A stretch of 59,525 nt of DNA. It comes from a virus. The notes under the pieces were generated by a model. It was not told where the DNA came from. It did not search any database and was given only the letters and a program-made list of their open reading frames with translations. The stretch is taken from positions 1 through 59,525 of IMG/VR virus record IMGVR_UViG_3300013126_002454; one strand, written 5' to 3'. The position numbers were made by a program, and so were the translations under genes. Positions 15,105-33,193 of the stretch are shown here, one piece after another (the first letter of the stretch is position 1; every line of letters starts with the position of its first letter).

Positions 15105-15109
15105 CCACA

Positions 15110-15119: not shown

Positions 15120-15144
15120 CTACGTGTGTGCGTGTAGATAGGTA

Positions 15145-15173: not shown

Positions 15174-15201
15174 ATAGGTATAGTAAGAAAGGAGCGGTAA
15201 G

Positions 15202-15467: not shown

Positions 15468-15628
15468 CTTTTCATCGTATCAATGAAGATCCTACCTACG
15501 ACGATGATGGCAACTGCGTAGATGAGGATTATATCGATCCTGCAGAATGGGACAAAGCATTTCCTAAAGAAAAACCCGAAGATTGCTACATCATAGACTG
15601 TGATCCGTATGGGACGGTAAATAGCTAG
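15464..15628 (+). CDS. very acidic small protein, 54 aa
   Basis: Asp/Glu-rich (EDPTYDDDGNCVDEDYIDP) with three cysteines and no hydrophobic segment. ATGA overlap with the preceding gene. A DNA-mimic or regulatory role is possible for such acidic phage proteins, but nothing specific is visible. Confidence 0.55.
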   Translation: MTFHRINEDPTYDDDGNCVDEDYIDPAEWDKAFPKEKPEDCYIIDCDPYGTVNS

Positions 15629-15629
15629 A

Positions 15630-15956: not shown

Positions 15957-15974
15957 GGTCTTTAAACGTTTCGG

Positions 15975-16003
15975 TTGACATTTTGATTCCTTGGTGCTAT
16001 ACT
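15975..16003 (+). promoter_or_regulatory. early sigma70-type promoter
   Basis: TTGACA 15975-15980, 17-bp spacer, TATACT 15998-16003. Leader ACGGAGCGAAGT before ATG 16034. Confidence 0.85.
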
Positions 16004-16033
16004 ATGGGTACAGTGAACGAAACGGAGCGAAGT

Positions 16034-16351
16034 ATGATTACTGATCAAAAAACAACTCTTAAAGCCCCCTGCGCATGGTGGGCAGCGCAGGATGCTCGCA
16101 TGAAGAGCATCGCCAACAAGAGCCGTTGGAGTGCCTCTGTGCAACTGCAGGTGGACCGTATGATGGTTGCTCTGGGAGAGCTCTATGCGGGCAAGATCTA
16201 CGAAGCCTATAACGTCAAGCGAGTGTCAATCAAGATTGACAAACCCGTTGTAAAAAATCTCAAACAACTGCGGGAAATGGAAGCCTACTGGGCAGAGCAG
16301 GGAGTAACAAAGACCCAGACCAGCACAGGGTTATTATATCGAATCGCTTGA
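16034..16351 (+). CDS. hypothetical early protein, 105 aa
   Basis: Start set by the promoter and GGAGCGAAGT motif. CAWWAAQDARMKSIANKSRW is an aromatic, basic helix; the C-terminal half alternates basic and hydrophobic residues. No family recognised. Its stop TGA is inside the -35 box of the next promoter. Confidence 0.6.
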   Translation: MITDQKTTLKAPCAWWAAQDARMKSIANKSRWSASVQLQVDRMMVALGELYAGKIYEAYNVKRVSIKIDKPVVKNLKQLREMEAYWAEQGVTKTQTSTGLLYRIA

Positions 16352-16376
16352 CAATTTGGGCGATCGGTGCTATACT
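16348..16376 (+). promoter_or_regulatory. early promoter overlapping a stop codon
   Basis: TTGACA 16348-16353 contains the stop TGA at 16349-16351. 17-bp spacer, TATACT 16371-16376. Confidence 0.85.
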
Positions 16377-16401
16377 ATAGACTAATTGTTAAGGAGCGAA
16401 G

Positions 16402-16668
16402 ATGTATATTAAACTAAAAACCGAAACAGAGCAAGAGCAGATCGTCCGAGCCCTGCGTGGCTGGCAGTTTGATCGCAAGCGGCACGGGTGCCTGTTTGAT
16501 CGCGGCTCGGCAGATTCTTACTACGGTCGTGGCAGTGATCCGCACTATGGTGGAGTAGGTGGGGATTCGGGTCCGCGTGTGGATAACCTAACTCCAGAAG
16601 AAGTCCGCGAGTATGCCGCAGGCTATGAATACAATGAGCGGTTTGGGGACAAGAAGGATTGGCGCTAA
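16402..16668 (+). CDS. conserved phage protein, DRGSADSYYGR type
   Basis: 88 residues. DRGSADSYYGRGSDPHYGGV followed by GPRVDNLT and GYEYNERFGDKKDW is a highly characteristic motif of a small protein found in many tailed phages; its function is unknown. Overlaps the SWIM gene by one base (TAATG). Confidence 0.7.
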   Translation: MYIKLKTETEQEQIVRALRGWQFDRKRHGCLFDRGSADSYYGRGSDPHYGGVGGDSGPRVDNLTPEEVREYAAGYEYNERFGDKKDWR

Positions 16669-17015
16669 TGGAGGCTGTGCGTGAAATCACTGTTTGGACG
16701 GGCGTTGACTACCGGCAACCCAACCACGACTACCTGCTCGACGGCGATCGAGTGGTTGCCTACAGGCCTTGGGGCACAGGTGAAATCATCCGTGGCTCAG
16801 GCAAACTCAAGATCGACCGCCGTGGCCGTAAGTTCGAAAAACTCGAACCCAACCCCTTCGAATGCATCACAGAATGCAAGGATGAAAAGCCAATGGTTCT
16901 AGAAGTCCAAGGATCTAAGGGCAACTCGTACTGGGTAAATGTCCTGGACAAGACCTGCACCTGCCCGGGCTTCACATTCCGAGGCAAATGTAAGCACGTG
17001 GAATCTGTGGCATAA
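16668..17015 (+). CDS. SWIM-type zinc finger protein
   Basis: 115 residues. ITVWTGVDYRQPNHDYLLDG forms an N-terminal beta region. The C-terminus, NVLDKTCTCPGFTFRGKCKH, is a SWIM finger (C-x-C, then C-x-H), usually a DNA- or protein-binding zinc site. Start at the TAATG overlap with the preceding gene. Known as an uncharacterised conserved phage family. A role in early takeover is inference from position. Confidence 0.75.
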   Translation: MEAVREITVWTGVDYRQPNHDYLLDGDRVVAYRPWGTGEIIRGSGKLKIDRRGRKFEKLEPNPFECITECKDEKPMVLEVQGSKGNSYWVNVLDKTCTCPGFTFRGKCKHVESVA

Positions 17016-17033
17016 AAGCCACATCCAAAGTGG

Positions 17034-17062
17034 TTGACAGATTGGGCTAGAGGTGCTATACT
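17034..17062 (+). promoter_or_regulatory. early sigma70-type promoter
   Basis: TTGACA 17034-17039, 17-bp spacer, TATACT 17057-17062. Leader nearly identical to that at 17816 (ATAGGTATAGT, then AAGGAGCGA). Confidence 0.85.
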
Positions 17063-17092
17063 ATAGGTATAGTAAATGATAAGGAGCGATAA

Positions 17093-17344
17093 ATGGGATA
17101 CTTCAACAGACTAGAGCAAGACATTATGAGCATGGCCCACGACATGGGCGATGACTTCGGCGAGGATGCTGAGACCATCCTAGTTATCAGCCATGCGCTG
17201 GACGTGACCCCTGAAGAGGTTCAGCGTGTGTTAGAAGGGGACCCGGACTGCGATCCTGGTGATATGGACGGGGACTTTGACAGTGCCATGGCCAGTGCCG
17301 GCTACGGTACTGATGAGGACTACGGCTACTACGGGGACGAATAG
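17093..17344 (+). CDS. very acidic early protein, 83 aa
   Basis: Asp/Glu/Gly/Tyr-rich, with a helical middle (AETILVISHALDVTPEEVQR) that could be a small winged or UBA-like domain, and a disordered acidic end (DPDCDPGDMDGDFDSAM). No basic patch. Function unknown. The next gene starts in its stop codon (TAGTG). Confidence 0.6.
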   Translation: MGYFNRLEQDIMSMAHDMGDDFGEDAETILVISHALDVTPEEVQRVLEGDPDCDPGDMDGDFDSAMASAGYGTDEDYGYYGDE

Positions 17345-17556
17345 TGCCTAAGAAATTTACCTTCTGGCGCAACTGCATCGTGGCTGAGACCTTTGAGGTT
17401 GTGGCAGAATCCGAAGAGGAAGCACGTGATCTGGTCCGGGATGAAAACCCAGTTCGTGAGGAATGGGTTGATTGGTTATCCGATGATTACGAACTTGAGA
17501 ACATTGAAGAATTAGACCCTTTGTACCGTATGGTTAAAGACTATGGATCAGTTTAG
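17344..17556 (+). CDS. small acidic early protein, GTG start, 70 aa
   Basis: Starts at GTG inside the previous stop (TAGTG). KFTFWRNCIVAETFEVVAES then EEEARDLVRDE resembles small phage proteins with a beta-hairpin and helix in which a xVxAxSEEEA motif introduces the helix. Overlaps the next gene by 14 bases. Confidence 0.55.
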   Translation: MPKKFTFWRNCIVAETFEVVAESEEEARDLVRDENPVREEWVDWLSDDYELENIEELDPLYRMVKDYGSV

Positions 17557-17791
17557 TTTCTTTTGTTTGGCCAACGAGGACAAACAGTTCTTGGGACAGT
17601 ATGTCAGCCCTCGAGGTGAGAGTTCTACATTCAAGCAGATCCCTATACAGCAACTTGATAGGACTAAATCACTGCTGCGTAAGCTAGGATACAGGGGCAG
17701 GATCGTGTACAGGGGCCCGAGGATTGATCAGATCGATCCTAGCTTCACCCGTAAGAGGGATGCTGTTGCGTTTTCTGTATACCCGGCCTAA
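17543..17791 (+). CDS. conserved small phage protein, 82 aa
   Basis: FSFFCLANEDKQFLGQYVSP and LRKLGYRGRIVYRGPR suggest a compact alpha/beta fold; the ending DAVAFSVYPA is typical of small phage proteins of this kind. Unknown function. Last gene of a three-gene unit. Confidence 0.55.
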   Translation: MDQFSFFCLANEDKQFLGQYVSPRGESSTFKQIPIQQLDRTKSLLRKLGYRGRIVYRGPRIDQIDPSFTRKRDAVAFSVYPA

Positions 17792-17815
17792 GTGTAGGGT
17801 TATTATAGATTTTGG

Positions 17816-17844
17816 TTGACAGTTTGGGCTAGAGGTGCTATACT
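17816..17844 (+). promoter_or_regulatory. early sigma70-type promoter
   Basis: TTGACA 17816-17821, 17-bp spacer, TATACT 17839-17844. Leader TAAGGAGCGAAAG before ATG 17875. TAGGGTTATTATAG lies between the preceding stop and this promoter. Confidence 0.85.
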
Positions 17845-17874
17845 ATAGGTATAGTGAATAGTAAGGAGCGAAAG

Positions 17875-18165
17875 ATGGAAAAAGGATGTTGTCCAGTTTG
17901 CAACGGTAGCGGTCGAGTACCTGTGCCCGAGAGCATGGAGAAGTATAAGACCTTTATCGCTGGCTACGATGCAGCCACTGACACCTTTGACTGCACCAAT
18001 TGTGGTGGTCAGTATATGTTCGGTCGCCCTACAGGTGAGGTGCGTTTGAACAAAGATGGAGTACCTTGTACACACAAATATACCAGTAAGACTGTAGGAC
18101 GCTGTCTTACAGAATACACCTGCTCAGAGTGTGGAGATCGATATCAGATTGATTCGGGTGATTGA
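17875..18165 (+). CDS. CxxC zinc-ribbon phage protein
   Basis: 96 residues from ATG 17875. CCPVCNGSGRVP and CTNCGG give a DnaJ-like zinc centre. The C-terminal GRCLTEYTCSECGDRYQIDS supplies a second pair and is a recognisable end of a widespread small phage protein. It has no J domain. Possibly a protein- or nucleic-acid-binding zinc protein. The stop lies within the next promoter -35. Confidence 0.7.
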   Translation: MEKGCCPVCNGSGRVPVPESMEKYKTFIAGYDAATDTFDCTNCGGQYMFGRPTGEVRLNKDGVPCTHKYTSKTVGRCLTEYTCSECGDRYQIDSGD

Positions 18166-18190
18166 CACTTTGGCAGAATGGTAGTATAAT
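18162..18190 (+). promoter_or_regulatory. early promoter overlapping a stop codon
   Basis: TTGACA 18162-18167 contains TGA 18163-18165. 17-bp spacer, TATAAT 18185-18190. Confidence 0.85.
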
Positions 18191-18219
18191 ATACAGATAC
18201 TGAAAAACAAGGAGCGAAT

Positions 18220-18576
18220 ATGCCTAAATCAGCACAAGAGAAGTTTAACGAATACCTAGAGGAGTGCCGGGAGACCCGGGATGCTATCAATGAGCTAGAG
18301 AAGTCAGCTCGTGAGAATCACAATGGTTCCTATGCCTATGCCTGCGGTGTCTACTCTATGCTGCTGGGAGATGTCATAGCAGAACTGCCTAAGAAGCGTC
18401 GTGCAGAAATCCGTGAGCGACTGCTACGCTCAGCACAGAAGCAGAAGAACGAACTGTTGGCTAAACAGATCAAAGACAGCGATATCCAGCGTATCTTCGA
18501 TCCGGCAGGAGTGATGCGATGGCCCCACAAGAGTTTGAATACATTCGTCGGGCTGTTGATGCTCTGGAGAATATAG
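18220..18576 (+). CDS. helical early protein, 118 aa
   Basis: Highly charged helical protein (KFNEYLEECRETRDAINELE, ELPKKRRAEIRERLLRSAQK). The last 20 residues (WPHKSLNTFVGLLMLWRI) look unlike the rest and overlap the next gene by 58 bases in another frame. The natural end may be different, for example through a frameshift. Preceded by AAGGAGCGAAT. No family recognised. Confidence 0.55.
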   Translation: MPKSAQEKFNEYLEECRETRDAINELEKSARENHNGSYAYACGVYSMLLGDVIAELPKKRRAEIRERLLRSAQKQKNELLAKQIKDSDIQRIFDPAGVMRWPHKSLNTFVGLLMLWRI

Positions 18577-18743
18577 AGATGACTCCTATGACCGAACGCA
18601 AGGTTCTTAGGACCATTGAACAGATCTGTGGCAAAAATGCCACAGAAATCGAATCCAACCTCATCGGCAGTGTAGATGCTCGGATCACACGCAACTATCA
18701 GGATCTGCAGAATCAGAAATTGGTTGACACATTGAGCAAATGA
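18519..18743 (+). CDS. helical early protein, 74 aa
   Basis: MAPQEFEYIRRAVDALENIE followed by a second helical block. Lies +2 relative to the upstream gene and overlaps it, so it may be a separate gene or the C-terminal half of a frameshifted larger protein. Its last codons (LVDTLSK) are read through the -35 box and spacer of the next promoter. Confidence 0.5.
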   Translation: MAPQEFEYIRRAVDALENIEMTPMTERKVLRTIEQICGKNATEIESNLIGSVDARITRNYQDLQNQKLVDTLSK

Positions 18744-18752
18744 TCGTATAAT
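18724..18752 (+). promoter_or_regulatory. early promoter embedded in a coding end
   Basis: TTGACA 18724-18729, 17-bp spacer, TATAAT 18747-18752. The -35 and part of the spacer encode the end of the upstream protein. Leader AAAAGGAGCGAATT before ATG 18783. Confidence 0.85.
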
Positions 18753-18782
18753 ATACACATACTGATAGAAAAGGAGCGAATT

Positions 18783-19418
18783 ATGCCTAATTGGTGTTCA
18801 AATCATATTACTGTGCGTGGCACAAACTCTGCAGAGATCCAGCGACTCTCAGACGCATTCAAGCGTGGTGAGTTCTGCGATGCAGTTATTCCAGTGCCAG
18901 AGATTCTAAAGAATCCAGAAACTACCACTAACTACGGCGATGATAGCAAGCAGGCAGAAGCAGATCGCGTCCGTGCTGAGGCCGTGGCCGCAACTGGCTA
19001 TCAAAGTTGGTATGACTTCTGCACCAACCGTTGGGGAACCAAATGGGATGTGGGTGATGAGTACAGTATCGAAGTTGATGAAGACGGTCTAGGGTTCTCT
19101 GCTCCGTTTGAGAGCGCCTGGGCTCCTCCTATGGGAGTAGTTGAAGAGTTGGTTGAACAGGGTTTGGAAGTCACACTTTATTACTATGAACCAGGTATGG
19201 CATTCGTAGGCAAGTTCGAAGATGGCTACGACGATATGTATGAGTTGGGCGGAGAGACTTCTAAGACCGTGCGGGCCTCGATCGGTGATGAACTGGACGA
19301 TATGTTTGGTATCTCTGAGTCGATGGCTGACTACGAAGCAGACAACGAAGAAACGGAAGAGCTCACAGAATGGATCAAGGACGGCGCTGAGAAGCGTGCC
19401 GAATTGAAAACCCTGTGA
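18783..19418 (+). CDS. DUF1281 / YubB ferredoxin-like domain protein
   Basis: 211 residues. Opens MPNWCSNHITVRG, the diagnostic start of the DUF1281 ferredoxin-like family seen on plasmids and phages. Later motifs YDFCTNRWGTKWDVGDE and FSAPFESAWAPPMGVVEEL fit the same family. The C-terminal tail is long and acidic (ESMADYEADNEETEEL). The family's role is unknown. GTGA overlap with the next gene. Confidence 0.8.
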   Translation: MPNWCSNHITVRGTNSAEIQRLSDAFKRGEFCDAVIPVPEILKNPETTTNYGDDSKQAEADRVRAEAVAATGYQSWYDFCTNRWGTKWDVGDEYSIEVDEDGLGFSAPFESAWAPPMGVVEELVEQGLEVTLYYYEPGMAFVGKFEDGYDDMYELGGETSKTVRASIGDELDDMFGISESMADYEADNEETEELTEWIKDGAEKRAELKTL

Positions 19419-19711
19419 GGATAGTTAAACTGACCAGGAACTATAACGGCTACGGTGTGTTTACACACCGAATCGAGTTCCTAGGTGGTCCAAGGCAGAA
19501 CAGAGTCCAGCAGTGGATTTCTGTTCGCAACTGGCTGTGGAGCCAATTTGGTCCCAGTGCCGAACAATTCCTGGCCCGACCAGAGCTATTCGATGGTGTC
19601 CAACCTCAGTGGGCTTGGGATTCGGATAAGAGTGCTATCTATCTTAGAGATCAAGCACTGGTTATGTTTCAATTGAAAAAGGAGTTTTGGGAAAATGAAG
19701 AAAACCTTTAA
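19415..19711 (+). CDS. conserved phage protein, GTG start, 98 aa
   Basis: GTG at 19415 overlaps the previous stop. IVKLTRNYNGYGVFTHRIEF, FLGGPRQNRVQQW and YLRDQALVMFQLK form a pattern familiar from small phage proteins of unknown function. Mixed alpha/beta, no zinc or membrane feature. Confidence 0.6.
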   Translation: MRIVKLTRNYNGYGVFTHRIEFLGGPRQNRVQQWISVRNWLWSQFGPSAEQFLARPELFDGVQPQWAWDSDKSAIYLRDQALVMFQLKKEFWENEENL

Positions 19712-19901
19712 TTTCCGATTCGAAGTTATCTGCGCTGACGCCGGAGACACAGATCATGATCGGGTTGAACAACTGATAGATCTCGCCATGCAGGATCTGA
19801 TCTACGATGATGAATTCATCTCTGCTGTAGGCGAGAAGCAAGCATTGACCATTCGAGTGTCTAGATTGGACGAACGGATGGTTGACAACAGCATCGAATG
19901 A
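19695..19901 (+). CDS. small acidic early protein, 68 aa
   Basis: KTFNFRFEVICADAGDTDHD then helical LIDLAMQDLIYDDEF and a strand ALTIRVSRLDERM. Overlaps the previous gene by 17 bases. The last codons (MVDNSIE) are encoded by the -35 and spacer of the next promoter. Confidence 0.55.
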   Translation: MKKTFNFRFEVICADAGDTDHDRVEQLIDLAMQDLIYDDEFISAVGEKQALTIRVSRLDERMVDNSIE

Positions 19902-19910
19902 TGCTACATT
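19882..19910 (+). promoter_or_regulatory. early promoter embedded in a coding end
   Basis: TTGACA 19882-19887, 17-bp spacer, TACATT 19905-19910. Weaker -10. It serves the gene at 19966 through a longer leader without GGAGCGAA. Confidence 0.7.
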
Positions 19911-19965
19911 TAAAGCATACCAATAAACGGTATATCACTTTTACACACACTTTGGAGATTTAGAA

Positions 19966-20277
19966 ATGGCTACAGAAAAGAAATTTGCGGTTGCTGGTGT
20001 TTCCACCCTTGAAGGCAAGACCAAGATCCGCTTTGCCAACGATACCATGCGTATCAAGATCCTGGCCAAGAACGGCCACACCAATATCGAGTTGGTGGAC
20101 CTGCCACATGAAATGACCAAAGGCGAGATCGCTCAGCACATGATCGACACAGACTTCGCCCACGGTCGCGCAGATGTACAAGCTGCCATCGACTACGTGG
20201 CCAAGAAGAACCCTGTGGCCGCAAAGGCCAAGGTAAGTAAAACGACTGTCGTGAAGGCAGAAACTGTCGCTGAATAA
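19966..20277 (+). CDS. conserved early phage protein, 103 aa
   Basis: Alternating beta/alpha start (KKFAVAGVSTLEGKTKIRFA, MRIKILAKNGHTNIELVDLP), a helix, then a basic Ala/Lys tail (AKAKVSKTTVVKAETVAE). Similar proteins occur in other phages without known function. Ends the unit before the RNA and terminator at 20279-20341. Confidence 0.6.
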   Translation: MATEKKFAVAGVSTLEGKTKIRFANDTMRIKILAKNGHTNIELVDLPHEMTKGEIAQHMIDTDFAHGRADVQAAIDYVAKKNPVAAKAKVSKTTVVKAETVAE

Positions 20278-20278
20278 A

Positions 20279-20341
20279 CCCGATTCGCTCCCGGTGTCAG
20301 CGGCCCTAGGCCCACTGTATGCATGTACAGTGGGCTTTTTT
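20279..20341 (+). ncRNA. candidate small RNA or regulatory 3' UTR with anti-RBS loop
   Basis: Starts one base after the stop with CCGATTCGCTCCCGG, identical to 11725-11739, and ends in a strong terminator. The predicted CCG/CGG-closed loop ATTCGCTCC complements GGAGCGAAT upstream of many early genes, perfectly for those at 18220, 18783, 9290 and 21942. Function is inferred. Confidence 0.5.
20310..20341 (+). terminator. intrinsic terminator
   Basis: GCCCACTGTA (20310-20319) pairs with TACAGTGGGC (20326-20335), followed by a run of T. Ten-pair stem. Confidence 0.9.
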
Positions 20342-20353
20342 TGATCTCGAATA

Positions 20354-20372
20354 ACCCTACAGGCTGTAGGGT
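20354..20372 (+). terminator. hairpin, possible second terminator
   Basis: ACCCTAC (20354-20360) pairs with GTAGGGT (20366-20372). Same stem as 9708-9728. No clear T-run. Confidence 0.4.
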
Positions 20373-20387
20373 CTTTAGGCATTTTGG

Positions 20388-20416
20388 TTGACATTTTGGA
20401 CAAAGTGTGCTATTAT
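20388..20416 (+). promoter_or_regulatory. early promoter with inverted repeat
   Basis: TTGACA 20388-20393, 17-bp spacer, TATTAT 20411-20416. AAGTGTG (20403-20409) and CACACTT (20420-20426) flank the -10 as an inverted repeat, a candidate operator. Confidence 0.8.
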
Positions 20417-20443
20417 ACACACACTTAAACAAAGGAGCGCAAC

Positions 20444-20695
20444 ATGCAAAACACTTACAAAGCAGCAGCACTAGCACAAAAAGCATTTGCTAAATTTGTA
20501 ATTAACAAAAAGCTAAACACTATCCGTATGCTAGTAAGTTTTAACAACACAGTAAATGTGCGCACAGCAAATTACAGCACAGGAGACTTATGTAATTTGC
20601 AAGACAGCGCAGATTATAAACAGTTAACAATTAACAAAGCGTTGCAAAATGCACAACAAACACTGCGCACTAATAATATTGTATTTGTTGACTAA
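20444..20695 (+). CDS. proline-free early protein in the YC-free tract, 83 aa
   Basis: Gln/Asn/Ala-rich (NTYKAAALAQKAFAKFVINK, TINKALQNAQQTLRTNNIV), with no proline. Preceded by AAAGGAGCGCAAC. No family recognised. Codon choice differs from genes before 20280: GCA, ACA and AGC replace GCC, ACC and TCN. The single TCC in the surrounding 1.76 kb is at 20523-20525 inside this gene. Confidence 0.6.
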   Translation: MQNTYKAAALAQKAFAKFVINKKLNTIRMLVSFNNTVNVRTANYSTGDLCNLQDSADYKQLTINKALQNAQQTLRTNNIVFVD

Positions 20696-20719
20696 ACTGT
20701 AGGGTTATTAGCATAGTGC

Positions 20720-20748
20720 TTGACATTTTGGACAGTATGTGCTATTAT
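20720..20748 (+). promoter_or_regulatory. early promoter with inverted repeat
   Basis: TTGACA 20720-20725, 17-bp spacer, TATTAT 20743-20748. GTATGTG and CACACACT flank the -10 as an imperfect inverted repeat, and the core GTGCTATTATACACACACTT is shared with the promoter at 20388. Confidence 0.8.
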
Positions 20749-20782
20749 ACACACACTTAAACAGTAATTGTAAGGAGCGATA

Positions 20783-21010
20783 ATGCGTAACTTAACACTA
20801 GCACAACACGCAGCACAACAAGCACAGCAAGCAGCAGTAGACGCAGCAGGCATTGCGATGACGCTGCAAGACGCTATTGCAGAACGTGGGAGACAGCAAC
20901 ACGCAACACAAATTAAAAACTGGTACAAGCAGGGCTATTACAAGAAAACTAACGGGCTGTGGTACAGCAACGTAGGTGGCAAGGAATACAGAAAGTACAC
21001 TACAATTTAA
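20783..21010 (+). CDS. proline-free early protein in the YC-free tract, 75 aa
   Basis: N-terminal Ala/Gln-rich helix (LTLAQHAAQQAQQAAVDAAG), C-terminal aromatic and basic part (NWYKQGYYKKTNGLWYSNVG). No proline and no TC/CC in its DNA. Ribosome-binding site TAAGGAGCGATA. No family recognised. Confidence 0.6.
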   Translation: MRNLTLAQHAAQQAQQAAVDAAGIAMTLQDAIAERGRQQHATQIKNWYKQGYYKKTNGLWYSNVGGKEYRKYTTI

Positions 21011-21011
21011 C

Positions 21012-21040
21012 TTGACATTTTGGGCAGCGTATGTTATAAT
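21012..21040 (+). promoter_or_regulatory. early promoter with perfect inverted repeat around the -10
   Basis: TTGACA 21012-21017, 17-bp spacer, TATAAT 21035-21040. CAGCGTATG (21025-21033) and CATACGCTG (21042-21050) are exact inverted repeats either side of the -10, as expected of a repressor operator. Confidence 0.85.
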
Positions 21041-21050
21041 GCATACGCTG
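21025..21050. promoter_or_regulatory. 9-bp palindromic candidate operator
   Basis: CAGCGTATG and CATACGCTG separated by eight bases that hold the -10 box. Also could form a 5' hairpin only if transcription began upstream, which is unlikely; a protein-binding operator is the simpler reading. Confidence 0.6.
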
Positions 21051-21080
21051 TTTAATTAACTTAACTTGTTAGGAGCGTAT

Positions 21081-21563
21081 ATGTTTAATGCACAAAAAAT
21101 TGCACAATTTTGCGAAGTAGAAAAAGACGGGATTAGCTTTAGCGTAGACGTTAGCGACAGAGGCTTGACTGTTGCAGGCGTTAAAGTGCTAGAGGTAGGC
21201 ATGTATGCTAGCACAGATAACGATGCAGACGAAGGCGAAGAGGCTAGCTATTGCGACGGCGACATGTATGTTGCTTGGGACATGGAGGGCTTGCAAAACG
21301 ACGAGACTGCACAGACTACGGGCGTACTGCTGTTGCGCAACATACACAGCGAAGACGACGTTACAGCAGTGATGGGACAGTTTTATTGGGAACATGCTTT
21401 TGACGAACAACTTAGAGACATACTTATAGACTGCGGCTTTAGTGCAGAGACAGCAGGCAATGTGCATACTAGCGAATGGGGTATGCAGGACGAGGGACGT
21501 GCTAGCTACGACGCTTTTGGCATAGCAGACGAGATACGCAAAGCAATAACACTGACAGCATAA
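21081..21563 (+). CDS. proline-free acidic protein in the YC-free tract, 160 aa
   Basis: Start at ATG 21081 by the TAGGAGCGTAT motif. Strongly acidic (STDNDADEGEEASYCDGDMY), five cysteines, mixed alpha/beta with GVLLLRNIHSEDDVTAVMGQ. Not a single proline in 160 residues, unusual for a protein this long. Its DNA has no TC or CC. No family recognised; it is the largest gene of the tract. Confidence 0.6.
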   Translation: MFNAQKIAQFCEVEKDGISFSVDVSDRGLTVAGVKVLEVGMYASTDNDADEGEEASYCDGDMYVAWDMEGLQNDETAQTTGVLLLRNIHSEDDVTAVMGQFYWEHAFDEQLRDILIDCGFSAETAGNVHTSEWGMQDEGRASYDAFGIADEIRKAITLTA

Positions 21564-21582
21564 GGGTTTTTAGCACAGCAGG

Positions 21583-21611
21583 TTGACATTTTGGGCAGGC
21601 TGTGCTATACT
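21583..21611 (+). promoter_or_regulatory. early sigma70-type promoter
   Basis: TTGACA 21583-21588, 17-bp spacer, TATACT 21606-21611. TAAGGGTTTTTAGCACAG precedes it, as at 21871. Leader TAGGAGCGACACA before ATG 21639. Confidence 0.85.
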
Positions 21612-21638
21612 TTGTTTTTAGTTAATAGGAGCGACACA

Positions 21639-21872
21639 ATGTTTGCAAACACTAAACAAGTACGTGCTGTGGGTAATGCTGTTATGGGATTTAGCGCAAA
21701 TTGGACTGAGAAGACTAGCAAGCAGAACACGCAGAGGCGCAGTGTGTGCTGGATGGTGGGGGACAGCGAACGTGCGGCTAAACGCATGAAGGCTGCTTTT
21801 GCTGCTGCGGGCTATGCTAACAGGGTGAACGCACGTGGTATATATGTGCGTGTAATAGCTGACTTAGCGTAA
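21639..21872 (+). CDS. proline-free basic protein in the YC-free tract, 77 aa
   Basis: Basic and Ala-rich: WTEKTSKQNTQRRSVCWMVG, then ERAAKRMKAAFAAAGYANRV. Could bind nucleic acid, but no motif settles it. No proline. Start at the GGAGCGACACA motif. Confidence 0.6.
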   Translation: MFANTKQVRAVGNAVMGFSANWTEKTSKQNTQRRSVCWMVGDSERAAKRMKAAFAAAGYANRVNARGIYVRVIADLA

Positions 21873-21890
21873 GGGTTTTTAGCACAGTGC

Positions 21891-21919
21891 TTGCATTTTG
21901 GCTAGCATTGTGCTATAAT
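21891..21919 (+). promoter_or_regulatory. early promoter, TTGCAT variant
   Basis: TTGCAT 21891-21896, 17-bp spacer, TATAAT 21914-21919. Leader AATAGGAGCGAAT before ATG 21942. Confidence 0.75.
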
Positions 21920-21941
21920 GTGTTTTTAAATAGGAGCGAAT

Positions 21942-22100
21942 ATGACTACATTTTATTTTACGCAAACAGTTACATATTACTTAACAGTAAAAGCAGATAC
22001 TTGGGAGCAAGCAGACGCTATTGCTGAAAGCACAGATGTTAACAGCGCAGGCGTTAACGCAGACTACACGGGCTGGGAAGAAGACGGCGAAGCAGAATAA
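21942..22100 (+). CDS. proline-free small acidic protein in the YC-free tract, 52 aa
   Basis: MTTFYFTQTVTYYLTVKADT (beta-rich start) followed by WEQADAIAE and an acidic end WEEDGEAE. Resembles the small phage proteins with a xVxAxxWEQA strand-helix motif (compare the 17344 gene). No proline. Last gene of the tract. Confidence 0.6.
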   Translation: MTTFYFTQTVTYYLTVKADTWEQADAIAESTDVNSAGVNADYTGWEEDGEAE

Positions 22101-22157
22101 TTTGGTTGACAGTAATACGCACGTTAGTAAGTACTTACCGACCCCGCTGCTAAGGGG

Positions 22158-22186
22158 TTGACAAATTGGGCTGATGCTGTTATAAT
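22158..22186 (+). promoter_or_regulatory. early sigma70-type promoter
   Basis: TTGACA 22158-22163, 17-bp spacer, TATAAT 22181-22186. Its leader contains two alternative hairpins and lacks GGAGCGAA. Confidence 0.85.
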
Positions 22187-22202
22187 TAGATACATACTTA
22201 AC

Positions 22203-22233
22203 CGGGGGCCTGTCCCCCCATAGTCTATGGGGT
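22203..22233 (+). promoter_or_regulatory. 5' leader with competing hairpins
   Basis: GGGGG-CCTGT-CCCCC can form one stem; the same C-run can instead pair in CCCCATA-GTC-TATGGGG. The final GGGG is the only ribosome-binding-like sequence before the starts at 22237/22240, so the second fold would hide it. Switch-like behaviour is inferred. Confidence 0.4.
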
Positions 22234-22239
22234 AATGTG

Positions 22240-22632
22240 ATGTTAGATATCGTTCTCAGCCTAGTATTGGGATTCGTCATAGGATGGCGGATCAATCAGT
22301 TCCTGCAACTGATCGCCTTCAAGCGCATCCTACAAGAGCTGGGCATTTCCGAAGTAGACATGCGCCGGCTGGCCAAGAAGAACGGTATAGAATTGCCCGA
22401 CGAACCCAGAGATCCGGAGCCCGCAGCGCCAGGTCCCCAACCAGTGATCGAGATACGCATCGAGCAACATCAGGGCCAATTATTCGCTTGGCGATTGGAT
22501 ACGGACCAATTCCTAGCACAGGGACAGGACAGCGAAGGTCTACAGCAGATCTTACAGGAACGCTTCAGTGATTCTCGGATCGTGGTACGAAGGGATCAGG
22601 GCGGAGATCTGTTGCAAAAAAACAACGGATAA
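22240..22632 (+). CDS. membrane-anchored phage protein, 130 aa
   Basis: MLDIVLSLVLGFVIGWRINQ is an N-terminal membrane anchor; a GTG one codon upstream is also possible. A cytoplasmic region follows with a helix (ILQELGISEVDMRRLAKKNG), a Pro-rich linker (DEPRDPEPAAPGPQP) and a beta-rich end with a LFAWRLDTDQFLAQG motif. Conserved in outline among phage proteins. Function unknown. Pro and YC content return to normal here, directly after the tract. Confidence 0.65.
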   Translation: MLDIVLSLVLGFVIGWRINQFLQLIAFKRILQELGISEVDMRRLAKKNGIELPDEPRDPEPAAPGPQPVIEIRIEQHQGQLFAWRLDTDQFLAQGQDSEGLQQILQERFSDSRIVVRRDQGGDLLQKNNG

Positions 22633-22637
22633 ATTGG

Positions 22638-22666
22638 TTGACATTTTGGGCTAGAGATCGTATAAT
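22638..22666 (+). promoter_or_regulatory. early promoter giving a leaderless message
   Basis: TTGACA 22638-22643, 17-bp spacer, TATAAT 22661-22666. The ATG at 22673 lies seven bases past the -10, the same geometry as at 7559/7571. Confidence 0.85.
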
Positions 22667-22672
22667 ACGACT

Positions 22673-22903
22673 ATGAAGACTGCAAATGACATGATACAAT
22701 GGGTGGGCACGGTGTTCGTGCTGCTGATGTACACCGTGATGAACTTCTTTCCGGAACTCACTCCGTGGAACATCACATTCGGACTGCTGGGGGCCTTGAG
22801 CTATTTCGCCTGGACCGTGCGTGTCCGCAACTACCCGCAGATGCTGATCAACATCGTGGCAATAACCCTATGCACCGGCGGGTTGATCCGTCATTTTGGT
22901 TGA
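22673..22903 (+). CDS. conserved three-helix membrane protein, 76 aa
   Basis: Hydrophobic segments WVGTVFVLLMYTVMNFF, FGLLGALSYFAWTV and MLINIVAITLCTGGLI. Small membrane proteins with this layout recur in tailed phages. No ribosome-binding site; the start codon coincides with the predicted +1. The stop is in the next -35 box. Confidence 0.65.
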   Translation: MKTANDMIQWVGTVFVLLMYTVMNFFPELTPWNITFGLLGALSYFAWTVRVRNYPQMLINIVAITLCTGGLIRHFG

Positions 22904-22928
22904 CAGCCGGGCCAAAAGATCGTATACT
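22900..22928 (+). promoter_or_regulatory. early promoter overlapping a stop codon
   Basis: TTGACA 22900-22905 contains TGA 22901-22903. 17-bp spacer, TATACT 22923-22928. Leader ACGGAGCGCAAA before ATG 22956. Confidence 0.85.
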
Positions 22929-22955
22929 GTAAACACTAACTAAACGGAGCGCAAA

Positions 22956-23129
22956 ATGATCAACAATGATCTCAAAGTAATAGCAGGAATACAAGAACGC
23001 CTGGGCCAAATGCCCATCCTGGAAACCCTGTTCTATATCGAGAACAACACCCAAGAATTCACCATCTCAGAACTGCGTAGTTTCTATGCAGTGATGAGCC
23101 AGTTCCGCGCCATGTTCTCAGCGGCATAA
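22956..23129 (+). CDS. small helical early protein, 57 aa
   Basis: MINNDLKVIAGIQERLGQMP, then ETLFYIENN and ELRSFYAVMSQFRAM: all helical, amphipathic. Own promoter. No family recognised. Confidence 0.55.
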   Translation: MINNDLKVIAGIQERLGQMPILETLFYIENNTQEFTISELRSFYAVMSQFRAMFSAA

Positions 23130-23134
23130 ATCGG

Positions 23135-23163
23135 TTGACAAAGATCCCAAAAGATCGTATACT
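23135..23163 (+). promoter_or_regulatory. early sigma70-type promoter
   Basis: TTGACA 23135-23140, 17-bp spacer, TATACT 23158-23163. Shares AAAAGATCGTATACTGTAAACACT with the promoter at 22900. Drives the genes from 23197 to 24254. Confidence 0.85.
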
Positions 23164-26511: not shown

Positions 26512-26706
26512 ATGGCACAATATATCTTACCCGCTGCTCGCAACACTAAAACTGGACAAACTGTAAAACACCAAGATCTCAAAGGTATTCGATACCAGCC
26601 ACATCAGATCACGGAATGCCAGCTCATGGCACAACGACTGGCCAACAATATGACCACTCGTGGCACTGATCTTTGGGTTCCTGTGATTAAAAACTACACT
26701 GCTTGA
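26512..26706 (+). CDS. small conserved phage protein, 64 aa
   Basis: Start at ATG 26512 next to the late promoter. QYILPAARNTKTGQTVKHQD, then a helix and DLWVPVIKNYTA. Small proteins with AQY.LP.ARN...GQ recur in tailed phages and may be virion-associated. Function unknown. Confidence 0.55.
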   Translation: MAQYILPAARNTKTGQTVKHQDLKGIRYQPHQITECQLMAQRLANNMTTRGTDLWVPVIKNYTA

Positions 26707-27141
26707 TTATTTGTACAGATAATTCACAGAAGTTTCGTTTTCTCTGAATACCTCAGCTCCGTTTTTCAGATGGAATTTTCTAGCCATTTCTGTTTTAGGA
26801 CTTAGAGTTACATAAGTTTCTACATCAGGATTGGTATCTCGGATGTGTTGTTGTGCCGCTTGTATCAATTGACGGCCTGCTCCATTGGCATAACTCCAAA
26901 TGCTGTAAAATACTGCTGTATTAGTATGCACTGCTACCTCGGCCAATTCATCCACGCTGTGAGGAATACGTTCAAGAAACTTCACACACGTAACTGCCAA
27001 AGGTTCATCGTTATCACCTTTCAGCACAAAGATCCTGCTGTTCGAATTCACTCGCTGTTCAACGGGAATTTCTGGACGAACTGGATCGTCTTTGATTAGA
27101 TTTAAAAGATTATCCGAAAGATCTTTAATTACATGCAACAT
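26707..27141 (-). CDS. GNAT-family acetyltransferase
   Basis: 144 residues. The acetyl-CoA loop appears as YANGAGRQLIQAAQQHIRD (a R/Q-x-x-G-x-G/A variant), followed by strand VETYVTLSPKTEMARKFHLK and NGAEVFRENETSVNYLYK, the usual C-terminal helix-strand of GNAT enzymes. Related short GNAT proteins are encoded by T4-like marine phages. The substrate is unknown. Late promoter at 27164-27171, ribosome-binding site AAGGAAATAAC. Confidence 0.75.
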   Translation of the reverse strand: MLHVIKDLSDNLLNLIKDDPVRPEIPVEQRVNSNSRIFVLKGDNDEPLAVTCVKFLERIPHSVDELAEVAVHTNTAVFYSIWSYANGAGRQLIQAAQQHIRDTNPDVETYVTLSPKTEMARKFHLKNGAEVFRENETSVNYLYK

Positions 27142-27163
27142 GTTATTTCCTTAATTATATGCG

Positions 27164-27171
27164 TATTTATA
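27164..27171 (-). promoter_or_regulatory. T4-type late promoter TATAAATA
   Basis: Minus-strand TATAAATA, 22 bases before the GNAT start. Perfect late consensus. Confidence 0.65.
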
Positions 27172-27209
27172 TACCAACCAAAAAAACCTATTTTAATAAA
27201 ATGTATAGG

Positions 27210-27238
27210 TTGACCAAATAAATATTATACTGTAAAAT
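27210..27238 (+). promoter_or_regulatory. sigma70-type promoter
   Basis: TTGACC 27210-27215, 17-bp spacer, TAAAAT 27233-27238, ahead of AAAGGAG and the ATG at 27270. Distinct leader from the early family. Confidence 0.55.
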
Positions 27239-27269
27239 ATAATTGTTTACAACTTAAAGGAGTTCAAAT

Positions 27270-27956
27270 ATGTTCGATACTACGTTAGACCAATATGTAA
27301 TTCGTTCTGCTACGCAAATCAATGATGCTATGGGTCGCGTTTATGCACAGATGGGTCTGGCTGTTTTAACGTCCATGATAGTCAGTGCTCTGGTCAGTTC
27401 CAGTCCTGCATTAATGGCTTTATTGTTTGGCACAGCGTTAAAATGGGTAGTGATTTTCGCACCGTTGGTTGCTGTACTGGGTATCAGTCTTGCCTATGAA
27501 AAGATGAGCAAATCCACATTACAGATCTTACTGCACGGATTCGCGGCCCTAATGGGTCTCAGCTTCGCTACTATCTTTATCGTTTACACCCTCGGTAGCA
27601 TTTTTAGCGCATTCATGGGTGCTGCTGTATTGTTTGGCGTCATGAGTTTTTATGGATATTTTACCAAACGAAGTTTAGATAGTTTTGGTAAATTCTTATT
27701 TGTAGGATTGATCGCCATAGTAATTGCCAGCATAGTGAATATCTTTATTGGATCAACTGTGATGCAAATGGTGATCAGTACATTGGCTATCATTATTTTT
27801 CTAGGTTTGACCGCTTATGATACACAGCGAATACGTGAAATGGTCAGCTATGAAAATGATGGCAAGATGGAAATCATGGGTGCCTTAAGTCTTTACTTGA
27901 ATTTTATCAACATCTTCCTGAGCCTACTGCAATTGTTTGGGAATAAAAACGACTGA
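27270..27956 (+). CDS. Bax inhibitor-1 / YccA family membrane protein
   Basis: 228 residues, seven hydrophobic segments. Family signs: N-terminal RVYAQMGLAVLTSMIVSALV, central FITKRSL-like YFTKRSLDSFGKF, and the end LTAYDTQRIRE followed by GALSLYLNFINIFLSLLQLF, matching the BI-1 pattern (YDTQ near the sixth segment, LYLDFINLF). Bacterial members act in the inner membrane and affect protease FtsH and ion leak. In a phage it might modulate membrane stability or lysis timing. It sits alone on the plus strand with its own promoter. Confidence 0.85.
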   Translation: MFDTTLDQYVIRSATQINDAMGRVYAQMGLAVLTSMIVSALVSSSPALMALLFGTALKWVVIFAPLVAVLGISLAYEKMSKSTLQILLHGFAALMGLSFATIFIVYTLGSIFSAFMGAAVLFGVMSFYGYFTKRSLDSFGKFLFVGLIAIVIASIVNIFIGSTVMQMVISTLAIIIFLGLTAYDTQRIREMVSYENDGKMEIMGALSLYLNFINIFLSLLQLFGNKND

Positions 27957-28202
27957 CTACCTCTTCCTGCGCCATGCAGGAAGATTAGCTCTCCATACCA
28001 ACGCAAACTGAAACAGATCTAATTCTGACACAAACTCAACAGTAATGATCTGTCCTTGTCTGTGCTGAGTAAATTTTATCTGAGGATATTGATTTCGTAT
28101 AGATCTAAGTGCGTTTCTAATACGCCGTATCCTGCTCCAGCGTCGATAGGCCAGCACTAGATCTATAGTAATATCATCAAAGATTATTGAAACTGTATCC
28201 AA
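27957..28202 (-). CDS. small basic protein, 81 aa
   Basis: VLAYRRWSRIRRIRNALRSI basic helix, then IKFTQHRQGQIITVEFVSEL. The end (NLPAWRRKR) is encoded by a hairpin CTTCCTGC/GCAGGAAG that may serve convergent termination. No family recognised. Overlaps the next gene upstream by 19 bases. Confidence 0.5.
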   Translation of the reverse strand: MDTVSIIFDDITIDLVLAYRRWSRIRRIRNALRSIRNQYPQIKFTQHRQGQIITVEFVSELDLFQFALVWRANLPAWRRKR

Positions 28203-28384
28203 TATTGGACCCAGAAATAGAATCCTATGCAGATCGCTGCAAACTCAAAGTAATCGCGATAATAGCTCAAGGGTTTAGATTCTTTCTTAGTTTTTTCTTT
28301 GATAGATTCTACTGCCTTGCGGACATTTACGATCTTTGGCTGTGCATACTGCCAGGGTGGTCTAGGTTTATCTGGAAATATCAT
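28184..28384 (-). CDS. small protein with C-terminal membrane helix, 66 aa
   Basis: Pro-rich start MIFPDKPRPPWQYAQP, basic helix VRKAVESIKEKTKKESK, then FEFAAICIGFYFWVQYWIQF as a membrane tail. ATGA overlap with the upstream gene. Function unknown. Confidence 0.55.
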   Translation of the reverse strand: MIFPDKPRPPWQYAQPKIVNVRKAVESIKEKTKKESKPLSYYRDYFEFAAICIGFYFWVQYWIQFQ

Positions 28385-29247
28385 TTTGACGGAGCGATAC
28401 GATTAGCGATACGTTTCTGCGTACCATCGACCTTTTCACGCAAGTTGATAACTTCGTCACGAAGCTCGTTACCGTGTTCTTGACATTCTTGTAAATGCTC
28501 ACCTAGACTATCTGCCAATCCTGCCAAAGCTCGAATCTCTAACTTATTGAGCTCTGCGGCTTTGAGTAAGATATCGGTTTCAGTTTCCGATAATTCTACA
28601 CGCAGACTGTTTCCATCTTGTGTGGCTGAGTTCATCATATCTGCTAGCTCACCATCGAACCAACGAGCATTTTCATCCGATACTTCATCGCAATGTTCTA
28701 ACATGTGATCATTGAGTTCGTAAAAGCGTTCTGATACATCTCCAATAGAACGTATAGCAGCAGCCATCTCCTGAATGATTGCCACCATTTCTTGATTAAC
28801 ATGATTTCGATGATGTAGATAATCTAATTTAGTTTTAGTAATAATCGAATCTTGAAACAACGCCTGCATTGGTGTAGAAGGTTGTAGTTGAGTCAACATC
28901 ATCATACGATTACGATAAACATCATCGGTAGTGCGCATAATCAACTCACGATTACCACCTGCATTGATAGTATAACTCTGCATAGCATCAGTGACGTTTT
29001 CTTCTACGATTGAACGAGCTACTTGCACTTGTGCTACATTGAATTGAACTAATGCTTCGCTGTCCCAGGCACGTCTGGTATTCTTGGCAATCAATTCTTG
29101 TTGCTTTTGAATCTGTTCAGGATCGGCTGATTTAGCCGTACGCTGTTCACGTAAAAAGCGTAGTTCGTCTTGCAGCTCTTTGATCATATCCATTTCGGAT
29201 TTTGTTTCAGGGGCTGCTGCCTGTTCTTTCTTTGTTCTGGCTTGCAT
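28381..29247 (-). CDS. coiled-coil phage protein, 288 aa
   Basis: Almost entirely helical and charged. ETKSEMDMIKELQDELRFLR starts a coiled coil, and similar heptad-like blocks run to the end (NELRDEVINLREKVDGTQKR). No membrane segment or enzyme motif. Strong TAAAGGAG ribosome-binding site. Starts a unit with the two small genes downstream. A structural or scaffolding role is a guess. Confidence 0.65.
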   Translation of the reverse strand: MQARTKKEQAAAPETKSEMDMIKELQDELRFLREQRTAKSADPEQIQKQQELIAKNTRRAWDSEALVQFNVAQVQVARSIVEENVTDAMQSYTINAGGNRELIMRTTDDVYRNRMMMLTQLQPSTPMQALFQDSIITKTKLDYLHHRNHVNQEMVAIIQEMAAAIRSIGDVSERFYELNDHMLEHCDEVSDENARWFDGELADMMNSATQDGNSLRVELSETETDILLKAAELNKLEIRALAGLADSLGEHLQECQEHGNELRDEVINLREKVDGTQKRIANRIAPSK

Positions 29248-29344: not shown

Positions 29345-30058
29345 TTAGTTAAGAATATTTGATTGTTGTTCTAGACTGAGTTCTTGATCTTCTAGTTCAC
29401 GGATTTTATCCGTGATCTGATCAATAAGCCCTAGATTACGTAGAATTTTGAATACTAGATTTTCTACTGACCATTCACCTGCTCGAGCCAATCCCGCTTT
29501 ACGCATCTGTGTGATTTTATCTTTTACTGTACGTAATTTCTCAAGATCTTTGCTGAGAAGAGCATGTTCGATAGAAGCCAGTATGGCATCTTTCTTGGCT
29601 TCGACTGCTGCATCATCTACTTCTGGTTTGATTTTTCTAGGTTCGACCAACCAGGAATCATTTACTAGACTATATACTCCGGTGCTGTGATGAGGTTCGT
29701 CGGAGCCTTGTACATAACATTCTACCGGAAGTCCTTTGATCGAAATATCGTGCTGCTCACTCCAAAGAGCTTTCTTAGCATTGAATAGTTCTCTCTGTTC
29801 GTCGGTGGGCGTACCGGGAATAATAAGATGTAGGTCCAAATCACTGTATTCTGTCCACGTAAAATTAGCATTTGAACCAGTTATGGTATAATCTTCTACA
29901 TCTAATTCAATACCAACAAAATCTTCAAACGCTCTTGCGATTTCTATCAGTTTTTGTTTGACTTCTAGTTTGAGACGACTGTCTTCCCAAAGTTTGGGAT
30001 TCAATTGTCGATTTACTGTAATGAAGTCGTGATCTTCGTTTAATTCTCTTAGACGCAT
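29345..30058 (-). CDS. nucleotidyltransferase-superfamily protein
   Basis: 237 residues. TITGSNANFTWTEYSDLDLHL is the Pol-beta-type nucleotidyltransferase signature (GS, then two Asp in SDLDLHL). The C-terminal half is helical. The opening MRLRELNEDHDFITVN resembles the start of the gene at 1004-1492. Such phage proteins are common in T4-like genomes; substrate unknown. The third catalytic acidic residue may be in PVECYVQG but cannot be fixed. Confidence 0.7.
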   Translation of the reverse strand: MRLRELNEDHDFITVNRQLNPKLWEDSRLKLEVKQKLIEIARAFEDFVGIELDVEDYTITGSNANFTWTEYSDLDLHLIIPGTPTDEQRELFNAKKALWSEQHDISIKGLPVECYVQGSDEPHHSTGVYSLVNDSWLVEPRKIKPEVDDAAVEAKKDAILASIEHALLSKDLEKLRTVKDKITQMRKAGLARAGEWSVENLVFKILRNLGLIDQITDKIRELEDQELSLEQQSNILN

Positions 30059-31720: not shown

Positions 31721-33193
31721 CTAATTAAACACAGGTAAACCATAGATTTTAGACCAAGTAAAAGAATCGCCGATATCATTCACCATAGGTTGCCCTTTCA
31801 CATTCAAACTAGTGTTCAGCAACATAGGACATCCGGTCTTTTCGTACCAAATTTCTAAAAGTTTTCTAAATTCATGATTATCATTTTTGCCAACAGTTTG
31901 TATTCTGCTAGATCCGTCTTTGTGTACTATAGCAGGAAATTTTTCTGGGTATTTACAGTTAACTACAAATTGCATAAATGGGCTTTTATTATTAGGCATA
32001 CAAAAAAATTTCTCAGCATGTTCTTCTAAAATTGCAGGCGCGAATGGTCTAAATTGCTCTCTTTGTTTTATATTATTCACTACTTCTTTTATATTGGGAT
32101 CTCTTGGATCTGCAAGTAAACTTCTATTCCCTAACGCCCTGGGACCAAATTCTGCACGGCCTCTAGCTACTCCGCAGATTTTATTTTTTAATAAATGATC
32201 TACTATCTGTTGATTTGAAGTCTTAGGTGTTATATTTGTTCCTAAAAGCGGTGTAAAATTTTTTATATGTTTTTTGTGGTGGGCTAATACTGCACCAATA
32301 CTACTGCCATTATCACCGGGTGCCGGTGGGATCCATACATTGTTAAAATAATCAAAGGCTATTGGATTCGCAACACAATTAAGGGCACAACCACCGCCTA
32401 AAATTAAATTATTACTAGGAACAAGTTCTCTTGCTATCTGTAATATTCTTGTAAATGATTGTTCGTATATAAACTGTGTAGCTGCGGCAATATCAAATTT
32501 GTCTTGTTCTGATCGTAAATCAGGAGCCCACCAATCACATCCTCGATGTAAATTATGTTTGAACATAATAGGACGATGTGCTTCTGCATGAGGAAAAATA
32601 ATAAAATCGTCAACTATTCTTTTATAAAGGCGTTTTCGATCTCCGTAGGCAGACATTCCCATCAAGATATATTCTTCCTCGTTTGGTTTAAGATTACATC
32701 TTTTGGTCATAGCACTATAAAACAACCCTAGACTATCTGGATATGCACAGCTATAAATTTTTTTTAAACTAGTACCCTGTGCTCGCCAAATAGTTAATGT
32801 TTCAAATTCTCCAATGGCATCTATGATGACAATACAGGCAGAATCAAAAGGGCTGGTAAAATATGCTCCTGCTGCGTGAGTATGATGGTGTTTATATGTA
32901 GTAATAGGAGAATAGATTTCATATTTTGCAAGATACCGTTTAACACTATTATCTTGCCATCCTTGGCCGGCAAATAGTTGTCGTAAAGTTTTTAACCAAG
33001 GTTTTTCATACCAGCATATAAGATCTGGAGATCCCCCAGTCATTCTCGCATATTCAATTAGATCATCATTTAAATGAGGATCGTTTTTTATTTTGCTAAA
33101 TCGTTCAGAATCACTAGCAAATAATAAATTGCTATCTTCAAATACGGCTAATGAAGCATTGTGACTATTAGCTGATATTCCCCAAGTAATCAT
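31721..33193 (-). CDS. carbamoyltransferase, NodU/TobZ family
   Basis: 490 residues. N-terminal ISANSHNASLAVFEDSNLLF and HHHTHAAGAYFTSPFDSACI match the YrdC-like/kinase-fold part that makes carbamoyl-adenylate. The C-terminal ARGRAEFGPRALGNRSLLAD is the family signature, followed by REQFRPFAPAI and NTSLNVKGQP. This family carbamoylates sugars or antibiotic glycans from carbamoyl phosphate and ATP. In T4-like marine phages it is a known auxiliary gene. Here it sits between helicase and primase. Carbamoylation of a phage or host glycan is inferred. Slightly shorter than TobZ (about 570 aa). Confidence 0.9.
   Translation of the reverse strand: MITWGISANSHNASLAVFEDSNLLFASDSERFSKIKNDPHLNDDLIEYARMTGGSPDLICWYEKPWLKTLRQLFAGQGWQDNSVKRYLAKYEIYSPITTYKHHHTHAAGAYFTSPFDSACIVIIDAIGEFETLTIWRAQGTSLKKIYSCAYPDSLGLFYSAMTKRCNLKPNEEEYILMGMSAYGDRKRLYKRIVDDFIIFPHAEAHRPIMFKHNLHRGCDWWAPDLRSEQDKFDIAAATQFIYEQSFTRILQIARELVPSNNLILGGGCALNCVANPIAFDYFNNVWIPPAPGDNGSSIGAVLAHHKKHIKNFTPLLGTNITPKTSNQQIVDHLLKNKICGVARGRAEFGPRALGNRSLLADPRDPNIKEVVNNIKQREQFRPFAPAILEEHAEKFFCMPNNKSPFMQFVVNCKYPEKFPAIVHKDGSSRIQTVGKNDNHEFRKLLEIWYEKTGCPMLLNTSLNVKGQPMVNDIGDSFTWSKIYGLPVFN

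Follow-up and report, generated by a model that had tools for sequence, protein, structure and literature searches.

A Bax-inhibitor-1 family gene in uncultured relatives of jumbo phage PA5oct, and its possible part in holding together the infected cell's envelope

Proteins of the Bax-inhibitor-1 (BI-1) family have been studied as suppressors of cell death in eukaryotes, with their role in bacteria being poorly understood. Viral members of the TMBIM kind have been described, i.e., the GAAPs of poxviruses and the US12-type proteins of betaherpesviruses (PMC6163359), but these belong to viruses of eukaryotes. GAAPs, that is, act on apoptosis and on Ca2+ stores (PMC4416878), which is unlike the bacterial-virus setting considered here. 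GAAPs as well as human BI-1 also form ion channels and, with camelpox GAAP, a D219N substitution results in increased conductance along with loss of the anti-apoptotic effect (PMC4416878). Mitochondrial TMBIM5 acts as a Ca2+/H+ exchanger and in addition inhibits the FtsH-like AFG3L2, with YccA inhibiting FtsH itself (PMC9379554), and the BI-1 of Brucella affects membrane homeostasis (PMC7876416). On the phage side, a paper on phage MIJ3 reports a phage FtsH and, by a term search of its text, mentions neither YccA nor Bax (PMC6892783). A search of the literature on phage or viral BI-1, YbhL and YetJ, outside of which lay most subscription papers, surfaced the poxvirus GAAPs along with the FtsH of MIJ3, but nothing describing a gene of the present type.

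That gene is found within a 59,525-base IMG/VR record, the whole of which is referred to here as the window. It is an open reading frame at 27270-27956 on the plus strand, with an ATG start and encoding 228 amino acids, which an earlier note on this DNA had read as specifying a seven-span BI-1 family protein. This reading is confirmed. The Pfam Bax1-I profile PF01027 matches over its whole model (profile positions 3-207 of 207) at 187.2 bits, i.e., versus a cut-off of 34.1 (E = 4.2e-55), and an AlphaFold2 model based on 54 alignment rows is a confident one (mean pLDDT 91.7) that displays seven long helices plus one short helix. Using this model, Foldseek returned ten matches to solved structures at E <0.001, all of them YetJ (best E 1.1e-6). 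VIA-align superposed the model on B. subtilis YetJ with Z 24.3 and an rmsd of 2.0 A over 198 residues, at 23% identity, with YetJ entries spanning Z 19.8-24.3 and the next, unrelated row reaching Z 6.2. The model, in other words, has the seven-helix fold of YetJ. A previous AlphaFold model (pLDDT 78.6), for which 23 viral rows were used, showed poor packing (YetJ Z 10.9, rmsd 6.1) and is superseded by the one from the 54-row alignment. It was with this weaker model that a viral library was searched by Foldseek, with no row reaching E 0.001 and herpesvirus membrane proteins among the rows found above that value. No PHROG match to the protein was seen at E 0.001. The gene's G+C content is 0.403 versus 0.405 for the window.

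Within the family, the protein is best described as YbhL-type. Here that term is one devised for this analysis, no curated YbhL model in NCBIfam matching, and it refers to possession of Y130, K133, T181 and D184 at columns where YccA differs. The window protein possesses all four. E. coli YbhL is like it at these positions and also at T132, while E. coli YccA, which shares a family name and a fold class with it and which, as in the window, has 24 residues before the aligned tyrosine, is unlike it, with L, R, I and E at columns 130, 133, 181 and 184. YbhL of E. coli and the YbhL-type proteins of alphaproteobacteria and Bacteroidota are full-length homologues, though without a glutamate, E201, that is fixed in the main viral clade. 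The predicted product is thus a full Bax1-I/TMBIM family seven-helix membrane protein of YbhL type. As a YccA ortholog it is rejected, scoring just 29.2 bits on the YccA equivalog model (NF007765), for which the cut-off is 353 and E. coli YccA itself scores 455.8. Also considered, but not adopted, was a short N-terminal tail resembling that of the degradation-resistant YccA11: the median number of residues before the aligned tyrosine is 25 among viral proteins (204), 30 among bacterial ones (97 of 130 loci) and 24 in YccA, and as start codons are guesses, no claim is made regarding this tail.

The earlier note took the gene to be that of a phage, and this too is borne out, with the window's DnaB nearest to that of PA5oct-type jumbo phages and with relatives of BI-1 encoded by 592 of 593 stretches from a scan of viral contigs (IMG/VR; not dereplicated), of which the best 80 were retained. 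The window encodes as well a primase, a UvsX-like recombinase, a DNA helicase (PHROG 16) and a baseplate/tail-fibre protein. Its DnaB-type helicase is 54.6% identical to that of PA5oct, 50.8% to that of Phosso and 44.3% to that of SCTP-2, along with 54.7%, though over a shorter stretch, to that of Atu_ph07. Primase adjoins DnaB in PA5oct and Phosso, and is separated from it in the window by one gene, which specifies a Nol-like carbamoyltransferase (31721-33193, minus strand). By core gene similarity and by primase-DnaB order the window is that of a PA5oct/SCTP-2-like jumbo phage. An identical BI-1 (100%) is carried by a 195-kb contig. A terminase family match was found in 11 of 19 BI-1-bearing records (90-347 kb), one of these matches being weak, but as the same family also matches 11 of 14 control genomes this lends only mild support to a phage origin. 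BI-1 is a phage gene, then, of a jumbo phage group related to PA5oct.

Not every member of that group carries it. A sample chosen independently of BI-1, i.e., the best 80 of at least 598 DnaB-encoding stretches and as such biased towards the window's own lineage, has BI-1 near DnaB in 29 of 80. Where the sequence continues for 5 kb or more on the downstream side of DnaB, the count is 22 of 39, with BI-1 absent from the site in the remaining 17. Of nine DnaB-chosen records of at least 100 kb, PF01027 scores above cut-off in five (one cut by a contig end) and not in the other four; these were part of a survey of 18 records, nine of which were hand-picked, in part for known BI-1. Records of 51-139 kb chosen instead via UvsX have the gene in 2 of 12 cases and lack it in 10. 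Among four isolated phages, SCTP-2 encodes a Bax1-I protein that is above cut-off, PA5oct one that is below, and Phosso and Atu_ph07 none. Small unannotated 'phage' records with 31-39% matches were excluded, as they may be bacterial DNA. BI-1 is thus kept in many, though not all, PA5oct-related jumbo phages.

Where present beside DnaB, the gene is found downstream and on the opposite strand in 29 of 29 stretches, at what appears to be one site. One edge of this site is formed by a divergent neighbour (26707-27141, minus strand) encoding 144 amino acids and matching Pfam MCD (PF05292) at 37.7 bits, cut-off 23.2, which we take to have an acetyltransferase-like fold. The other edge is a nucleotidyltransferase-like gene (29345-30058, minus strand) with a match to PHROG 36119, of unknown function, and with NTP_transf_2 at 20 bits versus a cut-off of 21. 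Both edge genes were detected flanking BI-1 in 21 of the 29 stretches. Between them in the window is also a small convergent ORF (27957-28202, minus strand), the stop of which abuts that of BI-1, i.e., BI-1 stops one base before this ORF's end, and which has homologues in L002 (the 195-kb contig), L374 and L375. In three stretches (L353, L354 and L394) the site is empty, with edge genes adjacent and no BI-1 between. The 270-kb record containing the last of these, G729, nevertheless possesses a Bax1-I gene elsewhere, which points to retention of the gene after moving.

The viral proteins form a group of their own. Prior to tree building, viral rows at least 88% and bacterial rows at least 80% identical to a kept row were removed, taking 203 plus 130 rows to 73 plus 77 (with reference rows). 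The resulting 150-row tree, made by a quick method and midpoint rooted, places 70 main viral rows on one side (SH-aLRT 95), 77 bacterial rows on one side (99) and three rows in a second viral lineage (100). The latter (L356, L358 and L404) are 43-45% identical to the window protein, sit on a branch of 2.09, and occupy the same genomic site, accounting for 3 of the 29 stretches; they may represent either a replacement or else an old divergence. A first tree that also took in PA5oct, SCTP-2 and YccA was marked by very long branches, without a single viral side, and those three rows were then removed. For every viral row, the best bacterial match (out of 130 bacterial loci plus E. coli YbhL) shows 47-56% identity, and a wider survey of two phyla, in which 312 of 398 genomes of one and 85 of 296 of the other had a match, yielded none above 55% among the matches listed. 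Three residues set the main viral rows apart: K58 (199/200 versus 66/131 bacterial), R189 (200/200 versus 3/131) and E201, close to where the last helix begins (200/200 versus 0/131), with the 200 viral rows not dereplicated and some contigs entering twice. One locus, L170, was left out of the ORF-based sets as no picked ORF matched. The viral set was assembled from sequences resembling one of two viral proteins, a bacterial protein or DnaB, so that very different viral BI-1 proteins are under-sampled. Over 218 close, non-independent pairs, dN/dS has a median of 0.057 and a maximum of 0.12 (median dS 1.04), i.e., the gene is under purifying selection.

As to expression, the earlier note had posited a sigma70 promoter serving a plus-strand gene standing alone among minus-strand genes. 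The candidate promoter, at 27210-27238 on the plus strand, consists of a -35 hexamer TTGACC (27210-27215) and a -10 hexamer TAAAAT (27233-27238) with a 17-bp spacer, i.e., 10 of 12 consensus positions, and is followed by a Shine-Dalgarno-like AAAGGAG (27256-27262). Taken by itself this site is not above chance, there being four promoter-like sites in 26700-28500 versus a mean of 6.0 in shuffles. The call is supported instead by the site's recurrence, in the same position, upstream of the BI-1 of relatives. That is, a score of at least 10/12 is reached by 39 of the 134 distinct upstream regions versus about 5% of Markov shuffles. With a divergent upstream neighbour the promoter is seen in 8 of 13 cases, the window counted, always with a spacer of 17 bp and with its start 55-60 bp upstream of the ATG; with a co-directional upstream gene, 13 of 89 reach 10/12. 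Among the relatives listed, TATAAT is found in 12 of 13 and AAGGAG likewise in 12 of 13. The promoter claim thereby holds up. That of a lone plus-strand gene does so in part: its immediate flanks (26707-27141 and 27957-28202) are minus, but plus-strand ORFs resume two genes upstream. Homologues of three small ones, at 25884, 26265 and 26482, occur in relatives, leaving just one minus gene between BI-1 and further plus genes. Across the window there are 28 matches to TTGACN-N17-TATAAT with at most one mismatch, versus 2.5 expected. Twenty-three of these near-perfect sigma70 sites lie within 7536-23163 on the plus strand, among many small plus ORFs, and eight of these sites have GGTGCTATA(C/A)T as a core. 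Since this block, from 7.5 to 23.2 kb, has the same type of site, BI-1 shares a host-type promoter with it, and from promoter type early expression of BI-1 may be expected.

The earlier note had also suggested a link to the protease FtsH, and here the evidence is mixed, making the idea plausible if indirect. On the positive side, besides the inhibition of FtsH-type proteases by YccA and TMBIM5, is phage PA5oct, in which EST35_0265, named 'FtsH-interacting integral membrane protein' in GenBank, is located 41 bp before EST35_0266, an FtsH (M41 154.7 bits). EST35_0265 is found in 11 Pseudomonas phage records, two of which are the same genome. This is a Bax1-I-like protein of a related jumbo phage, but its Bax1-I score is 21.4 bits, under the cut-off of 34.1, and, unlike the window's BI-1, it sits beside its own ftsH and is not close in sequence; when the two were compared by profile, with a single sequence on the PA5oct side, the window family did not align with it. 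On the negative side, the window protein is not YccA-like, and an FtsH peptidase was found in none of 19 large BI-1-bearing viral records (0/19), which may be fragments. Band_7 (the HflK/C fold) is present in 2 of 10 BI-1-bearing viral records, as lipoprotein-like genes, and not in PA5oct. In two BI-1-bearing phages (L485 and L486) the lipoprotein-like Band_7 genes stand beside a gene that by eye is RIIB-like. In PA5oct (172500-177000) the Bax1-I-like gene and ftsH have clpS nearby, a possible phage proteolysis module. The third type of protein, gp332 of SCTP-2 (7605-8276 of locus L086), is from an isolated, related jumbo phage of 440 kb, is annotated as hypothetical, and scores 98.7 bits on Bax1-I. 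It exceeds the window protein on the YccA model, at 54 bits, but is not close to that protein, has no relative among the viral contigs, and in a search of the phage records recovered only itself.

Since a copy is retained in many related virus fragments, BI-1 probably helps to hold together the membrane of the infected cell. A more specific reading, which we favour tentatively and would stop short of calling probable, is of an envelope-holding protein, made early, that would act by restraining host FtsH/HflKC, with a cation leak perhaps contributing. BI-1, that is, would be produced early from its host-type sigma70 promoter, would be situated in the inner membrane, as its family suggests, and there would keep the infected cell's envelope working. 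It would bind and restrain host FtsH/HflKC in the manner of YccA and TMBIM5 with FtsH-type proteases, which in turn would spare membrane proteins, SecY among them, along with phage membrane proteins, over the course of a long infection, and a leak of cations, as with YetJ and GAAP, may contribute as well. It is the family and PA5oct that suggest such a role, with FtsH restraint the first choice of route and cation leak the second. Favouring this envelope reading are family and fold, distribution, low dN/dS, the recurrent promoter, retention after moving and the ftsH link in PA5oct; weakening it are the lack of YccA equivalence, the FtsH count of zero in 19, the scarcity of Band_7, the unaligned PA5oct protein and the absence of BI-1 from many relatives.

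From a different perspective, the protein could serve mainly as a leak for cations (Ca2+/H+/K+), tuning host membrane potential or ion balance and doing so without action on FtsH, a possibility that we view as rather unlikely. The close fit to YetJ (Z 24.3) is in keeping with a leak, as are the channels formed by GAAPs and human BI-1 (PMC4416878) and the Ca2+/H+ exchange of TMBIM5 (PMC9379554). So too is the dyad's first aspartate, D171 in YetJ and D184 in the window, which all 200 main viral rows keep, and so is the acidic E201, fixed in the main viral clade and seen in none of 131 bacterial rows. B. subtilis YetJ, however, while sharing with the window protein both the fold and this first aspartate, differs at the second: its D195, equivalent to D219 of GAAP, is N211 in the window. 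Main viral rows have D there in 167 of 200 cases and N in 33; all three rows of the second lineage have N, as do 41 of the 131 from bacteria. The classical di-aspartyl dyad is incomplete in the window protein as a consequence. YetJ R60, in addition, has no clearly conserved counterpart, being K78 in the window and varied in relatives, and the equivalent change in GAAP, D219N, raised conductance yet abolished the anti-apoptotic effect (PMC4416878). Whether by way of FtsH or of ion leak, it is possible, if doubtful, that the BI-1 proteins of uncultured jumbo phages are a dedicated viral clade which suppresses premature failure of the infected cell's envelope, in parallel to poxvirus GAAP.

Improbable, in our estimation, is counter-defence, i.e., that BI-1 blunts membrane-damaging effectors of abortive infection as a phage counterpart of poxvirus GAAP. 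Variable sites are common for accessory anti-host genes, and the BI-1 site is found variously empty, occupied and occupied by the second lineage. The family, furthermore, repeatedly suppresses cell death, poxvirus GAAP included (PMC4416878). A host gene acquired by chance and of little function to the phage, or else contamination of assemblies, is disfavoured and very unlikely, since, despite the gene's absence from many relatives, dN/dS is low, the promoter recurs, certain residues are fixed in viruses only, the viral side of the tree is supported (SH-aLRT 95), the window's neighbouring genes are those of a phage, BI-1 recurs at one DnaB-side site, and 11 of 19 BI-1-bearing records have a terminase match, albeit as do 11 of 14 controls.

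Should the envelope-holding reading be true, then the three dissimilar BI-1 types, i.e., of the window, of PA5oct and of SCTP-2, would mean that the function was acquired more than once, though their branches are too long to place. A widespread viral clade that is under selection, and that often has its own promoter, represents a natural experiment on how BI-1 acts in a bacterial membrane. In PA5oct, an isolated phage whose Bax1-I-like gene adjoins its own ftsH, the link to FtsH is open to a direct test. As to what else is found near BI-1, among 149 loci (L002-L237), with genes named by eye, there are ClpP-like genes in 26 and MazG-like genes in 45, the latter directly upstream in 38. Look-alikes of DNA ligase, FolE and QueD/QueE, also named by eye, are found near BI-1 among these same loci.
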